From Planctomycetota bacterium (GTDB lineage: Bacteria; Planctomycetota; UBA8742; UBA2392), in the NCBI GenBank assembly GCA_020845475.1, contig JADLFN010000046.1, forward strand, positions 138,997 to 202,996: DNA of 64,000 nucleotides, in the 5' to 3' direction. This document shows positions 11,365 through 62,193 of this stretch, in pieces; position 1 is the stretch's first letter; each line of letters opens with the position of its first letter. Under the pieces are notes generated by a model. The model was not told the DNA's origin, did no database searches, and saw nothing but the letters and a program-made list of their open reading frames with translations. Both the position numbers and the translations under genes were made by a program.

Positions 11365-11457
11365 GGGAGCGGATGCATTCCTGGTGGATGCCCTGGTCTT
11401 CAAAACCATGGTGGGGCGCGAGTCCCAGGTCGGTTCGATTCCGATGCGCTCCCGCCA
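11365..11457 (+). tRNA. selC: tRNA-Sec (anticodon UCA)
   Basis: 93 nt including encoded CCA (11455-11457). The anticodon TCA is at 11400-11402 in loop CTTCAAA. It has the features that set tRNA-Sec apart: long acceptor (GGGAGCG pairs with CGCTCCC), a 6-bp D stem (GCATTC/GGATGC) with a short loop, a long variable arm (about TGGGGCGCGAGTCCCA), and T arm GTCGG-TTCGATT-CCGAT with discriminator G. The eighth acceptor pair would be G-G, a small departure from E. coli selC. It is charged with serine and converted by SelA, whose gene lies just upstream. Confidence 0.95.
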
Positions 11458-22359: not shown

Positions 22360-22391
22360 AATTCAAAATTCAAAATTCAAAATTCAAAATG
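22360..22391. repeat. ATTCAAA tandem word repeat
   Basis: Four copies of the 8-mer ATTCAAAA lie between atpF and atpH. The same word in reverse lies at 62093-62121, at the start of the phosphatase-like gene. Confidence 0.7.
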
Positions 22392-29162: not shown

Positions 29163-31826
29163 TCACTTGCGGCCGCGTTTGACTTCGCCATCAGGCGGCA
29201 GCACACCTTTGCGCTGCAAGTACCGCTTGATGCACTCGCCGATCACCGGGCTGATGTCGGCGCCGTAGAGATCGCTGTACTCGCCCAGAATCACGAACGC
29301 GACTTCCGGCTTGTCGCAGGGCGCATAGCCTGCAAACCAGGCGTGGTCGGGCACGCCCTTGCCGTTTTCCGCGGTGCCGGTCTTGCCCGCGCAGCGGATA
29401 TCGCGCAGTACCGGCGAGCCGATCTGCGATTGCCGCGCCGTTCCGTGCGCGCCGAAAACCACTTGCTTGAGCCCCGCGTGCAGCGTATCCCACGTTGACT
29501 CGCGGATCTCGACCTGCTGCGAAAAGTCCGTGGCATCATCGGTCAGGTGCGGCGAACTCAGTTTGCCGCGCGTGGCGATGCAGGCGTACAGCCGCGCCAG
29601 CTCCAGCGGCGTAACGAGGATCTTGCCCTGGCCAATGGCCATCGTGGAAATTTCCGCCTGGCCCACTGAGTTGATATCGGCCAGGTTGGCGCGGCGCGTG
29701 CCGGGCAGTTCAAAGCCGCTTTCCTGGCCGAATCCGAGGTTCTCGGCCCAATAGCGCATCGTATCCCAGTCCTGGGCGGCGCCTTCAGAATGCAGGTGGG
29801 GCGCGAAGAAATAGAAGAAACCATTCGAGCTCACTTCGAGCGCATCAGCAACGTTGATCGATCGTCCACTTACGTGGCCCGTGCGCAGCTTCACCGGGCC
29901 AATCTGCACCACGGCCTGATTGTCGTTGTAGCGCTCGTCGGGCGAGAGCCCCTCTTCGAGCAGCGCAATGCTCGTAACCGCCTTCCACGTTGAGCCGGGG
30001 TGATAGAGCGTGCCGCTGGCCCGATTCAACTGGCGCGTGCGCCGCGCCCAGTAGGGCAGCTTCGCGTCTTCCTCGGCTTCCTGCTTGAGCTGCCGCCGAT
30101 AGACGCGGTCATCGTCGCTGGCACCCGCCATGCGCCCGGGATCAAACGTGGGAAAACTGACCAGGGCAAGCACCGCGCCGGTGTTGACGTCGAGCACGAC
30201 AGCGGCGCCGCGGAAGCTCCAGCGATAACGCGCCCAGCGATCATTGGGAATCGCGCCCTTGAGCGCATCGCTGCTCGATTTCATGCGCGCCTTGGCCGCA
30301 AGCCTGGGCTCCCAGCGCGCCATGGTCTCAAGGATGTCGCGCTGTAACTCCAGATCAAGCGTGAGCGACAGCGGCTGCGGATTCACCGGCGCCTGCTCAA
30401 ACTCGATGCTGCGAATGCGGCCGCGCGCATCGTGCATGGAAACGCGCGCGCCGTATTCGCCCGATAGCCGCGCGTCGTAGGCGCGCTCGATGCCGAACAC
30501 GCCCACGACCTGCTGCGCAACCACGCCATCGGCAAAGCGATTGAATGCCTCGCGGTCGCCCTCGAACCAGTCCACGATGAAGCCCTCGAGGTTCTCGGCA
30601 AAATTCGGGCGCGACATGATTTCGTCCAGCCGCTCCGCGTCCGGCAGGCCCACGCCTCCGAGCACCGGCGCCAGCAATTCCGCATGCGCATAGGTGCGGC
30701 TTGCGCGCAGGCTGCACTCCAGGCCGGGCAGCAGGTCGGCATTGAGTTTGAGCAGTTCAACCACGTCGCGCGGAGCTTCGCGCATGAGCAAAAGCGGGTT
30801 TTGCTCGAAGCCGTAAGTGCTCCAGCGCTCTTTCCAGTCAGCCGCGTATTTCTCAATCGTGTCGCGTTTGAGCCGCAATGCGCGTTCCTCGAGGCCCGCA
30901 ATGCGCTGCGCAAGCGCGGCATGCGCTTTCACCAGCACTGCGCGGCCCTGATGCACGGTCGCGCTACAGGCTTCGTACAAGCGGCGCCAGGCTGCGTATT
31001 CTTCGCGCTTGGCGGCATCGAGCAGGGCTACAGCCTCGTCCGATCCGGCGATCTCGCGCGATTTCGCGTCGCAGTTGCGCGCGGCGCTGCCGCAAAGGTC
31101 GCGGACCGCGCGATCATCGCGAGCGCGCTCAAGCAGAATTGCGAGAAACTCCTGCTCGCGCCGGTTCCACGCTCCGCGCGCTTCGAGCACGGGCAGGAAC
31201 GCCACCGACTTGGGGTAACGCCGCACACGGTTCCAGTATTCAGGGTCGGTCAATGCCGGCTTGATGCGCAGCCAAGCGGCGTTGACCTGCGCGGCTTTGG
31301 CCGTGGCGGGGTCGAGGTCGCCCAGGATCGCGTCCACTTCGCGCGCCACGAGTTCAAAGCGCGCGGCTATCTCTTCACGCGGCACGCGGCTGAGCAGGCT
31401 GAGTTGCTCGATGGAGGCGGCGAGGTCGCGTTGGCTTTCTTCGCTCGCGCGCGCCTTCCAGTTGAGCAGGAAACGGCGGCGCGAAGCCGGCGCGGGCAGT
31501 GCGGGGTCTGGCTCCATTCTGCCGTCTTGTGGCAAAATGGTGCCTGACCCCTTTTGCTCGCGCATCGCTCGTGTTGCCGGCGCCGCAAACTCGTTCCAGT
31601 CAATAAACACATCCCACACGGTTTCCGTCTGCGCCACGAGCACGCCATCAGCCGTGTAAATGCGCGCGCGTGCAGGGCCAAGCAACTCCACGCGGCGACG
31701 CACCGCCTCGGCCTGTGCCTCGTGCTCGTCGTAATTCACGACCTGCATGTAGAAAAAGCGCCCCAGCAGGATCAGGAACGCCAAGGCAAAGCCGCACACG
31801 AGATAATTGAGCTTCGCATTGAACAA
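29163..31826 (-). CDS. mrdA: Penicillin-binding protein 2 (class B transpeptidase), enlarged
   Basis: 887 residues against about 630 in E. coli. One N-terminal membrane helix (LVCGFALAFLILLGRFFYMQVV). Transpeptidase motifs: STWK (Ser near residue 610), SSN (near 668) and KTGT (near 814), with the PBP2-like context YHPGSTWK and AGKTGTAENG. It cross-links peptidoglycan for cell elongation. The extra length is a helical region at about 120-450 between the pedestal and the catalytic domain. Residues about 90-108 (KGSGTI through EPDP) are encoded by a palindromic repeat that also occurs outside genes. No rodA follows here. Confidence 0.9.
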   Translation of the reverse strand: MFNAKLNYLVCGFALAFLILLGRFFYMQVVNYDEHEAQAEAVRRRVELLGPARARIYTADGVLVAQTETVWDVFIDWNEFAAPATRAMREQKGSGTILPQDGRMEPDPALPAPASRRRFLLNWKARASEESQRDLAASIEQLSLLSRVPREEIAARFELVAREVDAILGDLDPATAKAAQVNAAWLRIKPALTDPEYWNRVRRYPKSVAFLPVLEARGAWNRREQEFLAILLERARDDRAVRDLCGSAARNCDAKSREIAGSDEAVALLDAAKREEYAAWRRLYEACSATVHQGRAVLVKAHAALAQRIAGLEERALRLKRDTIEKYAADWKERWSTYGFEQNPLLLMREAPRDVVELLKLNADLLPGLECSLRASRTYAHAELLAPVLGGVGLPDAERLDEIMSRPNFAENLEGFIVDWFEGDREAFNRFADGVVAQQVVGVFGIERAYDARLSGEYGARVSMHDARGRIRSIEFEQAPVNPQPLSLTLDLELQRDILETMARWEPRLAAKARMKSSSDALKGAIPNDRWARYRWSFRGAAVVLDVNTGAVLALVSFPTFDPGRMAGASDDDRVYRRQLKQEAEEDAKLPYWARRTRQLNRASGTLYHPGSTWKAVTSIALLEEGLSPDERYNDNQAVVQIGPVKLRTGHVSGRSINVADALEVSSNGFFYFFAPHLHSEGAAQDWDTMRYWAENLGFGQESGFELPGTRRANLADINSVGQAEISTMAIGQGKILVTPLELARLYACIATRGKLSSPHLTDDATDFSQQVEIRESTWDTLHAGLKQVVFGAHGTARQSQIGSPVLRDIRCAGKTGTAENGKGVPDHAWFAGYAPCDKPEVAFVILGEYSDLYGADISPVIGECIKRYLQRKGVLPPDGEVKRGRK
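31503..31551. repeat. Palindromic repeat inserted in-frame in the PBP2 gene
   Basis: GGGGTCTGGCTCCATTCTGCC (31503-31523) and its near reverse complement (31531-31551). The same unit lies between genes at 59672-59718, with the same two asymmetric A/T positions. On the minus strand it encodes KGSGTILPQDGRMEPDP. Confidence 0.85.
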
Positions 31827-59456: not shown

Positions 59457-59619
59457 AGGCTGTTCCATAACCCCGTTCGCGGCCGATTTCGGGCGGCGAG
59501 CTTCGCAGGACTTCGTTCGGCTCGCCGCATGTGGCCGCCTGCCACACCTCGGCTCGCCTGCCTCGTCCCGCTCGCTCGGCGCTCCGAACTCGGCTCGCTC
59601 AGAGGTTATGGAACAGCCT
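59457..59619. mobile_element. 163-bp element with 16-bp terminal inverted repeats
   Basis: AGGCTGTTCCATAACC (59457-59472) and its exact reverse complement (59604-59619). The inside is GC-rich with words such as CGGCTCGC and GGCGAGC and no ORF. Its form is that of a MITE-like non-autonomous element; no target duplication is evident. Confidence 0.75.
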
Positions 59620-59671: not shown

Positions 59672-59718
59672 GGGTCAGGCACCATTTCGTCAAACTGCGC
59701 CGAAATGGAGCCAGACCC
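59672..59718. repeat. Palindromic repeat, same family as the one inside PBP2
   Basis: GGGTCAGGCACCATTTCG (59672-59689) and CGAAATGGAGCCAGACCC (59701-59718), two mismatches. It ends at the stop codon of the phosphatase-like gene. The PBP2 copy keeps the same two asymmetric positions. Confidence 0.85.
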
Positions 59719-62120
59719 TAACGCACCTCCCACGCGCGGCCGTCGAACTTGCGGCGCTCTTCGCTGGGCGGTACGCCGAAATATTTGAGCACGGTGTCGC
59801 CGACATCGACAAGCCGGAACTTGTCGGCCTTCAGGCCGCGATTGGAGAACAGCACGCCCGGCACGACGTCGGGCGCAAACGTGCAGTGGTCGCCCGACCA
59901 ATTGCGCAAGTTGGGCATGATCACGTTCTCGTGCGCACCGCCCAGTGTGGTCTGCCACGAAATGCGATAGCCGTTTTCAAAGAGCACGACGAGATCGCAG
60001 TCGTTCTCCAGCAGCGGGCCGTCCCAGACCTCTTTGTTCAGCTTCACCTCGCGAATGACGCGGCCACCGTTGGCGTCGCGCAAATCCAGCAGCTTGCGGC
60101 GGATTTCTTCGCGCAGGTCGGCGGCCTCTTTGCCCTCATGCACGATGCCCTTGGGCTCGCGGCCCGCAATGTTGAGGTAAATCTTGCCCAGGCCCAGGCA
60201 ATAGGCGCGCGTGTTGGCCCAGTCGTAGGTGCCGAAGTAGCGGCCCTTGCCCGTGAACAGGTCGTCCATGCTCACGTCTTTGGTGGGCTTGTTGAGCTTG
60301 AGATAGCCGTAGTCGAGCAGCCAGCGGTTGAGGTTGACGCTGGCGTAATAGGGCGCAAAGCCGTGGTCGCTGACCACAAACAGCACGCAATTCGCGGGCA
60401 GCTTGGTCATCACTTCGCCCAGCAATTTGTCGGCGCGGATGTAGCCGTTTTCGATGGCCTTTTTGTAGGCCTCGGGCGCGGTGGGGTCATGGGCGGGATG
60501 TTTGGCGTCCATGTGGCGCCACATCATGTGGCAGACGCGATCCATCTCGTAGAAGAAGCACACGAGCAAATCCCACTCGCCGCGCTCGATCAGCGGCAGC
60601 AAATGCGCGCGGCGTTCTTCAAAGGCGTGCTCGCAGGTTTCGAGAAACGTCTGGTCGTCAATGTTGCCGTCCTGCAAGGCGCTCGTGGCCTCCACCCAGC
60701 CCAGCGTGTCATACAAGCCGAACTCTTCGGCCAGGTCTTCGCCAAACTTGCTCGGCGCGCTGACGGCGAAAACGTCGGGGGTATCGAGCGGGTCGAACTG
60801 CACGGGCTGGGCGTAGAGCCGCACGTTGTTGCCGCCTTCGAGCAACTTGAAGCGCACGGTGCCGTGGAGTTTGGCGAGCCCGCCGAGGGTATAGACAACG
60901 CGTAGGTGAGGCGTCCATTCACCCACTTTGAGCGATACGTCCCCCACCAATGCCTGATTTCCAAACGCCAGCGTCACGCCTTCACCGCTGCGGCTCACTT
61001 CAAACCCAATCGACTCTCGCGGCATCTCCACCATCTCGCCGCGCTCCCAGCGCTTCCATGTGGCCACGTCAAAGCGCGCGGGCGGGCCGAGCAGCCGCGC
61101 TTTCGCCACTCCATCCTTGAATTCCAGGCGCTCGACGCGGCCGCCCATTTCCGTGATCTCGCCGGCCTGCGCGTGCGGCGGTTCCGTGTAGAGCGTGTAG
61201 GTATGATGCGTGCCCATGACGTCGGGCGTGGCCAGGCCCGTCGTGAGCGAGACGTTGTCTTTGTTGCGCGCGGGCCATTCCACGGGGCCGCCCAGCACTT
61301 TCGCGCGCAGGCCCTGCTTGCCCATGGTCGCCCAGAAGCTTTCGCCCGCGCGCGCTGACTCCGGGCGCGGCAGCGTTTCCGGCAGGCGCATCATGAACGC
61401 GAACACGGCCACGCTCAGCCCCAGCCACGGGAAAAGCCACGTGCGCAGCGGCAAGCGCATTCTCACAGTGCCATAGCCCCAGATGGTCGAAAGCACCAGA
61501 ATGCCTCCGAACACGCCAAACAACGCCGGCGGGGCCAGAATGTTCGTCAATGGGCTCAGCATCAACACGCCAATGCAGGCCGCCGCCGGAATCGTGCCAT
61601 GCAGTGCGGGCGCGCGGCCCAGCTTCGAGGCCACAAAGCGCAGCGCCATGCCCAGTGCAATCGACAGGCCCAGCAGCATCAGGCCCACGCATAGCGCCAC
61701 CACGGCGCGCGTGGGCCGTGTCCCGCCCATGAAGGCGCTTTCGTTGGCTTTGACCAGATCAAGCTCGGGGTCATAGCTGCCCGGCGCGCGGCTGACGAAA
61801 CCCGAAATGCCGGTGCGGCCGGGGTTAAGGCCCGTGACCATGGTGCTCCAGGCCGCGGGTGACATGGGCGGGTAGCTGGTCTCAAGCTTCGAGTAATGGC
61901 CCTGCTCGCGCAGCTTCTTGAAGTTCGGCAGTTTGCCCTCGGCCATGTATTTTTCCATGAGCACAGGGTCGAGCGCGTCATAACCAAGCACGACGGCCTT
62001 CTTGTCTTCGGCGTGCAGCGGCGCGGCGAACAGCAGCGCAACACTCAAAACGCAAAACGCAACAAAGCACGATGATCCGCCTCCGAGCCAATCTTGAATA
62101 TTGAATTTTGAATTTTGCAT
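59718..62120 (-). CDS. Alkaline-phosphatase-superfamily protein (phosphodiesterase/pyrophosphatase-like) with membrane helices
   Basis: 800 residues from ATG 62120. Signal helix FVAFCVLSVALLFAAPLHA. Family signs: VVLGYDALDPVLMEKYM (first metal Asp), YPPMSPAAWSTMVTGLNPGRTGI with the nucleophile Ser/Thr region, FYEMDRVCHMMWRHMD (D, H) and FVVSDHGFAPYYASVNLNRWL (DHG). About four membrane helices sit at 120-240 inside the catalytic fold. The C-terminus has a GDHCTFAPDVVPGVLFSNRGL block. Likely a type I phosphodiesterase/nucleotide pyrophosphatase or phosphotransferase at the membrane. The first residues MQNSKFNIQD are encoded by the ATTCAAAATT word repeat. Confidence 0.8.
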   Translation of the reverse strand: MQNSKFNIQDWLGGGSSCFVAFCVLSVALLFAAPLHAEDKKAVVLGYDALDPVLMEKYMAEGKLPNFKKLREQGHYSKLETSYPPMSPAAWSTMVTGLNPGRTGISGFVSRAPGSYDPELDLVKANESAFMGGTRPTRAVVALCVGLMLLGLSIALGMALRFVASKLGRAPALHGTIPAAACIGVLMLSPLTNILAPPALFGVFGGILVLSTIWGYGTVRMRLPLRTWLFPWLGLSVAVFAFMMRLPETLPRPESARAGESFWATMGKQGLRAKVLGGPVEWPARNKDNVSLTTGLATPDVMGTHHTYTLYTEPPHAQAGEITEMGGRVERLEFKDGVAKARLLGPPARFDVATWKRWERGEMVEMPRESIGFEVSRSGEGVTLAFGNQALVGDVSLKVGEWTPHLRVVYTLGGLAKLHGTVRFKLLEGGNNVRLYAQPVQFDPLDTPDVFAVSAPSKFGEDLAEEFGLYDTLGWVEATSALQDGNIDDQTFLETCEHAFEERRAHLLPLIERGEWDLLVCFFYEMDRVCHMMWRHMDAKHPAHDPTAPEAYKKAIENGYIRADKLLGEVMTKLPANCVLFVVSDHGFAPYYASVNLNRWLLDYGYLKLNKPTKDVSMDDLFTGKGRYFGTYDWANTRAYCLGLGKIYLNIAGREPKGIVHEGKEAADLREEIRRKLLDLRDANGGRVIREVKLNKEVWDGPLLENDCDLVVLFENGYRISWQTTLGGAHENVIMPNLRNWSGDHCTFAPDVVPGVLFSNRGLKADKFRLVDVGDTVLKYFGVPPSEERRKFDGRAWEVR

Positions 62121-62193
62121 TGCGGGCGGCGGCGCGGCTGGAATCTCGTGCAGGGAAACGCGAATCAAGACAAAGGGAAGGAGTCACGTTATC

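Follow-up and report, generated by a model that had tools for sequence, protein, structure and literature searches.

The best-known examples of mobile DNA contributing peptides to conserved proteins are the palindromes of Rickettsia, for which we know of no associated transposase. The repeat described here, which lies in a PBP2-like gene and between genes of a planctomycete, is like them in being palindromic, in having both intergenic and coding copies, and in being translated in frame within conserved proteins. It belongs to another taxon and is linked to a transposase, and the two kinds of repeats are set apart by their descriptions, not by sequence. The initial annotation had likened our repeat to the Rickettsia elements. 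The likeness holds for the way it works, in frame in conserved ORFs, but the repeat itself is of the TIR type linked to Y1.

TIR repeats with the motif GGGGWSAS have been described around the Y1 genes named TIRYT, and GTAG and CGTC REPs have been described inside ORFs, notably in repair genes (Di Nocera et al. 2013, PMC3733652, main text). The main text of Quentin et al. (2018, PMC6006769) places TIRYTs mainly in subclass 2.1 of TnpA-Y1, characterized by NH[VYF]H, Y[IV](E/H)LNP, and a C-terminal HTH-like extension; it reports no REP-like sequence adjoining this subclass, and in-frame REPs inside the transposases of subclass 2.4.

The repeat shares with the TIRs and TIRtrons of TIRYT the palindromic or inverted structure, the GGGGWSAS motif (here GGGGTCAG), the Y1 genes, a moderate copy number, and a presence in several phyla. 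The motif is found as AAAAGGGGTCAGG in the PBP2 and RecQ copies, the repeat flanks a Y1_Tnp gene, and its 15 copies are dispersed. However, the Y motif of subclass 2.1 is Y[IV](E/H)LNP and the one found here is YVERNP, and we found no description in these two papers of TIRs translated within host genes or their own transposase. The GTAG REPs (RAYT/TnpAREP) resemble our repeat in the imperfect hairpin, the link to Y1, the intragenic copies (including ones in repair genes), and the in-frame position in the transposase. Their arms are different, and the transposase is NHFH/YVERNP here, in contrast to the YIxNNP of subclass 2.4. No GTAG or GTGG foot is present on the PBP2 copy (GCAAAAG / CGCGGGG) or on the RecQ copy, and the second copy in the window has GCGTTAGGG; the GT[AG]G tetranucleotide that GTAG REPs have at the foot of the hairpin is missing. 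TIRs and intragenic REPs are known already, whereas for in-frame TIR copies in host genes and in the transposase itself we found no earlier description.

The Palindrome in the Window

The window, i.e., the whole stretch of 64,000 nucleotides that was analyzed, contains two copies of a 47-bp imperfect palindrome with the consensus GGGTC[A/T]GGC[A/T]CC…GG[A/T]GCC[A/T]GACCC (31504-31550 and 59672-59718; Table 1). The initial annotation had reported the same unit at these places, in frame in mrdA as KGSGTI...EPDP, and both its sequence and its coordinates are right. On the minus (gene) strand, copy 1 reads CAAAAGGGGTCAGGCACC ATTTTGCCACAAGACGGCAGAAT GGAGCCAGACCCC, and its start on this strand, AAAAGGGGTCAGG, matches GGGGWSAS.

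Table 1. Features of the palindrome and of the genes concerned (window coordinates, except where a contig of the host assembly is given)
Feature	Position	Strand	Description
PBP2/MrdA-like class B penicillin-binding protein, 887 aa	29163..31826	-	dimerisation and transpeptidase domains C-terminal to the repeat segment
Palindrome copy 1	31503..31551	-	core 31504-31550 plus G/C extension; in frame in the PBP2-like ORF; with flanking bases encodes KGSGTILPQDGRMEPDP
Copy 1 arm GGGTCTGGCTCC	31504..31515		gene strand GGAGCCAGACCC, read in the EPDP frame
Copy 1 arm GGTGCCTGACCC	31539..31550		gene strand GGGTCAGGCACC, read GSGT; then CTTTT
Palindrome copy 2	59672..59718		intergenic; arms same as copy 1, core different
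Type I phosphodiesterase/nucleotide pyrophosphatase family (PF01663) gene, 816 aa	59718..62168	-	ends on copy 2
RecQ palindrome copy	C40:57256-57302		in frame in recQ (host genome)
Predicted tryptic peptides across repeat segment, PBP2-like			GSGTILPQDGR / MEPDPALPAPASR
Predicted tryptic peptides across repeat segment, RecQ			GSGTVLAK / TEPDPK
Palindrome family GGGGTCAGGC			with YVERNP-type Y1
Palindrome family GGGGACTGTCCCC			with YIERNP-type Y1

When folded as single-stranded DNA, both strands of both copies give one long hairpin with two unpaired positions, and the DNA folds of the two window copies are far more stable than those of shuffled sequences (z about -5.5 to -6.5). The arm motif, allowing at most one mismatch, is observed 4 times in the window for 0.33 expected, and the full palindrome pattern is absent from 200 first-order Markov copies of the window. 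The palindrome in the window is not due to chance. Rfam gives no known RNA at either window copy, and a literature search for the arm sequence returned only unrelated primers and probes, as judged by their titles.

Both window copies carry both mismatched positions, from which the initial annotation had deduced descent from one source. The shared mismatches are indeed there, but asymmetric A/T positions characterize the repeat family as a whole across the bacterial family, and the window copies are not sisters: the copy at 59672 is nearest to one on contig C2.

A Replaced Segment in the PBP2-Like Protein

The PBP2-like ORF has 887 codons from the listed TTG, and its frame is open through the palindrome, around which the protein reads ...REQ KGSGTILPQDGRMEPDP ALPAPASRRR... 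The repeat-encoded segment corresponds to about residues 92-109, and both Pfam domains are C-terminal to it. The protein retains intact STWK, SSN, and KTGT motifs of a transpeptidase and has 65% identity to those of congeners overall. Its best profile score is for MrdA/PBP2 (TIGR03423), with 281 against a curated cut-off of 455; because this is under the cut-off, PBP2-like is the safe name. The gene is probably essential, and its function has probably been kept.

In all 14 relatives compared, from genus to order, a different segment of 26-27 residues occupies the place where the host has 18 repeat-encoded ones. It mostly follows (A/S)PxxYDxxxVxxFxxxxLxxxxxA and lies between the conserved blocks ..RxxA and ..L..P..RRRF. 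The segment of congeners has 26 residues; it is absent in the host, which has instead 18 residues stemming from the repeat and its edges. Hence, the event in PBP2 is, judging from these alignments, a replacement of about 26 codons and not a plain insertion. The expectation that relatives have a PBP2 free of the insert is thus borne out for the peptide, missing in 14 of 14, but the site in these proteins is not empty. Similarly, the idea that the repeat entered an essential cell-wall gene without breaking it agrees with the open frame and the three intact motifs, with the reservations that about 26 conserved codons were replaced and that the function is deduced.

A Sister Copy in RecQ

A second translated copy of the host genome is found in recQ. 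The protein reads ..KLLAQKGSGTVLAKDAKTEPDPKLPAIVYV.., with QKGSGTVLAKDAKTEPDPK inserted between the RecA-like helicase lobes. The RecQ orthologs of seven family genomes have 0-13 unrelated residues in that linker, and the inserted peptide is absent from E. coli RecQ (1OYW). By this comparison recQ has undergone a clean in-frame insertion, in the same KGSGT…EPDP frame as PBP2. This is another ORF with the peptide, as the initial annotation had predicted. The RecQ orthologs supply the empty site for a reading in terms of a mobile element, whereas mrdA has an alternative segment.

Among all copies, the one closest to the PBP2 copy is this RecQ copy, with 60 of 74 bases identical in an ungapped alignment that includes the flanks. 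Outside the palindrome, both have CAAAAG on the left and the nine bases CTGCCCGCG on the right, at the same offset. Because they share these 60 of 74 bases, including the nine flanking ones, the two copies are regarded as sisters, and one of them may derive from the other.

Distribution of the Repeat

Genomes were searched for GGGTCWGGCWCC-N10-40-GGWGCCWGACCC, with the reversed pattern as a control. The host assembly (4.27 Mb, 94 contigs, 77% complete) has 15 palindrome copies and no match to the control, in line with the earlier proposal of a dispersed palindromic repeat. The distribution is sporadic: the copies number 0 in two genomes of the same genus, 1-10 in each of nine further members of the family, and 0 in 25 genomes outside the family. 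Besides the PBP2 and RecQ copies, none of the 13 other copies of the host genome is within a recognizable gene. Those that fall in long frames are upstream of likely starts (aminopeptidase M17, DUF6935, and a sliding-clamp-like gene) or in frames without family. In GC-rich contigs, a number of long frames that span copies were set aside as spurious for lack of a family match.

Among the GTDB matches listed, the same arms are found in Bacilli, Betaproteobacteria, Clostridia, Coriobacteriia, Acidobacteria, Omnitrophica, Verrucomicrobia, Actinomycetota, and others. Fourteen genomes among these listed matches have 1-13 copies each; in most of them, the core that separates the shared arms is typical of the genome.

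A variant, AAAAAGGGGTCAGGCTACTTTT, recurs near contig ends of the host assembly (G000 C1:724, C14:49723, C55:501, C56:271, C76:289, and C83:586), as would be seen if an element in many copies interrupted the assembly.

Association with a Y1 Transposase Lineage

In the family genomes, the genes matching Pfam Y1_Tnp were compared together with their flanks. All six genes with NHFH and YVERNP (in G005, G007, G009 twice, G011, and G012) have GGGTCAGGC nearby, and in five of the six it is about 85-93 nt upstream of the core. Elsewhere the motif is rare: 2 of the remaining 55 Y1 genes have it nearby, and the 20 IS200-like genes all lack it. The association with the YVERNP type gives 7e-8 in a Fisher test for groups that were defined after looking. 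The YVERNP-type genes also contain within their coding frame, after the catalytic tyrosine and before the C-terminal part, 1-3 palindromes or arm pairs, which are translated as KGSGT..., EPDP, and similar peptides; in G014, three palindromes in one transposase gene show the same arrangement. Two sister YIERNP genes have GGGGACTGTCCCC repeats upstream instead. In the host, the start of a YVERNP-type gene lies truncated at the edge of contig C76, with the motif 92 nt upstream, on one side only.

Outside the family, the motif is on both sides of Y1 genes in four genomes: an acidobacterium, Mesobacillus foraminis, a betaproteobacterium, and an actinomycetote. In the Coriobacteriia genome G043, which has 11 copies, the search gave no Y1 gene. 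The YVERNP-type protein scores 70-73 bits with NF047646, below the cut-off of 80, and has no HTH domain match; NHFH and a C-terminal extension are present. As far as can be read from genomes, the palindrome is linked to one Y1 transposase lineage, and this transposase probably mobilizes it.

The two palindrome families also meet at the same intergenic site, where G009 (L291) has a GGGGACTGTCCCC palindrome and G013 and G014 have a GGGTC palindrome.

Intergenic Copies

In several cases in the family, the first base of the repeat falls on a stop codon or beside one. The final base of copy 2 (59718) is the G of the TAG stop of the 816-aa gene, and on the strand of that gene the hairpin is followed by TTTT. 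A role as a 3′-end hairpin is plausible. A terminator scan called none, copy 2 included; since the scan is silent on this copy, a terminator role is suggested only.

Many intergenic copies have complementary outer flanks that are specific to the locus, and the flanks of intragenic copies are not complementary. At one site with three orthologs (L307 G013:C83, L323 G014:C2, and L291 G009:C58), one arm is the conserved end of the gene, GAGTTCTAA, and the other has the same sequence inverted, a pattern that suggests fold-back copying at that intergenic site, either in the course of the insertion or later. For the complementary flanks, the alternative of an insertion at the tips of hairpins already present in the host was weighed, and the three-ortholog site favors fold-back copying.

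Copy 2 is adjoined by a MITE-like structure at 59457-59619, a perfect 16-bp inverted repeat (AGGCTGTTCCATAACC/GGTTATGGAACAGCCT) around 131 bp, the arms of which have no other occurrence in the genome.

Origin of the Intragenic Copies

The explanation that we favor, with a probability of roughly 0.8, is that the unit is a non-autonomous palindrome of the TIR/REP kind with Y1 arms, mostly intergenic and tolerated in genes when in loops and in a stop-free frame, which was inserted in recQ and replaced a segment in PBP2. It would be a small repeat, matching in its arms the terminal repeats of a transposase lineage of the Y1 kind (HUH, IS200-like), and it would be moved by the transposase as single-stranded DNA. 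Landing sites would be mostly between genes, several of them right on the stop codon of a gene. Intragenic copies would survive when the arms read stop-free, mostly as Gly-Ser-Gly-Thr ... (Glu/Val)-Pro-Asp-Pro, and sit in a loop or linker. Thus, one host copy would have entered RecQ between the two helicase lobes, and a sister copy would have taken, in frame, the place of the 26 residues now missing from the PBP2-like protein. We infer that both proteins are made and working, and likewise the route by which the PBP2 segment was lost. Four observations fit this explanation less well: the host transposase is a fragment at a contig edge in a 77%-complete assembly, a simple insertion does not yield the replacement in PBP2, the flanking bases common to the PBP2 and RecQ copies may reflect recombination instead of two transpositions, and G043 combines 11 copies with no Y1 gene found.

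The replacement speaks for another origin, in which the PBP2 copy was not transposed and recombination or gene conversion carried part of the recQ copy, together with some bases of its flanks, into mrdA, displacing the resident segment. The ungapped similarity between the two copies, extending to CAAAAG and CTGCCCGCG outside the palindrome, is as such a transfer would leave it. However, in a GC-rich genome the agreement in nine bases that spell Leu-Pro-Ala may be a coincidence, and the host sequences of mrdA and recQ have no longer homology, so that we regard this origin as possible but rather unlikely. A still smaller chance is given to the repeat being mainly a host regulatory hairpin, i.e., a 3′-end stabilizer or terminator, spread by recombination with no transposase and only incidentally placed in genes. 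The position of copy 2 on the stop codon of its neighbor, the TTTT that follows, and the several family copies similarly placed on or next to a stop speak for such a hairpin, but no terminator passed the scan, the repeat is sporadic between congeners and tightly tied to one Y1 lineage, inside whose gene it is also present, and repeats flank Y1 genes in other phyla.

The two other explanations concern the PBP2 gene itself. A broken or misassembled mrdA copy might be suspected in an assembly of 94 contigs that is 77% complete; it is very improbable given the frame of 887 codons, the three intact active-site motifs, the 65% identity to congeners, and the independent case of recQ. The open frame through the unit would also be seen if the peptide were native to PBP2 and conserved at the protein level, the DNA palindrome being a by-product. 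Here the relatives are decisive. The initial annotation had named the same peptide encoded by unrelated bases in relatives as evidence for such conservation, and the relatives are without the peptide in both PBP2 (0 of 14) and RecQ, and the same DNA is intergenic and in RecQ; this explanation is refuted by the relatives and has a negligible probability.

Translated Copies in Other Genomes

In-frame copies are also found in other genes. In the family genomes, these are TrpE, a histidine phosphatase, and an AAT-family enzyme; in Coriobacteriia, CoaX, glucose-6-phosphate isomerase (PGI), CarA, and the helicase PcrA; in Omnitrophica, an AIRS-family enzyme and a long ORF without family assignment; in Clostridiales, HydF; and in a planctomycete, HydE. 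The solved homologs of HydF and CoaX are without the peptide. The first arm is read Gly-Ser-Gly in 11 of 13 genes by hand count, the list being small, drawn from an open-frame scan and not from a peptide search, and excluding transposases. With three equally likely frames this preference has p = 2e-4, and with only two open frames 0.011. The simplest reading of the bias is selection, the GSGT/GSGS frame giving a flexible, hydrophilic linker free of stops.

We tentatively extend this, at somewhat less than even odds, to "translation-safe" Y1 palindromes throughout bacteria, whose GSGT/GSGS ... PDP linkers would settle in the loops of essential enzymes and helicases across phyla and in their own possible transposase. 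If this is true, such palindromes add new protein segments. With an identifiable Y1 lineage, a presence in many phyla, and a place in the transposase frame, the entry of a repeat into coding sequence becomes testable at the bench. For annotation, a word of caution is that a KGSGT...EPDP insert without explanation in a conserved enzyme can turn out to be repeat DNA.

Two further features of the window were noted. Related simple repeats of the AATTCAAAATTC type lie at 22360-22390 and 62091-62121, in inverted orientation, and the plus strand encodes a selenocysteine tRNA at 11365-11453 (Rfam RF01852, 73.5 bits), so that the organism probably makes selenoproteins.
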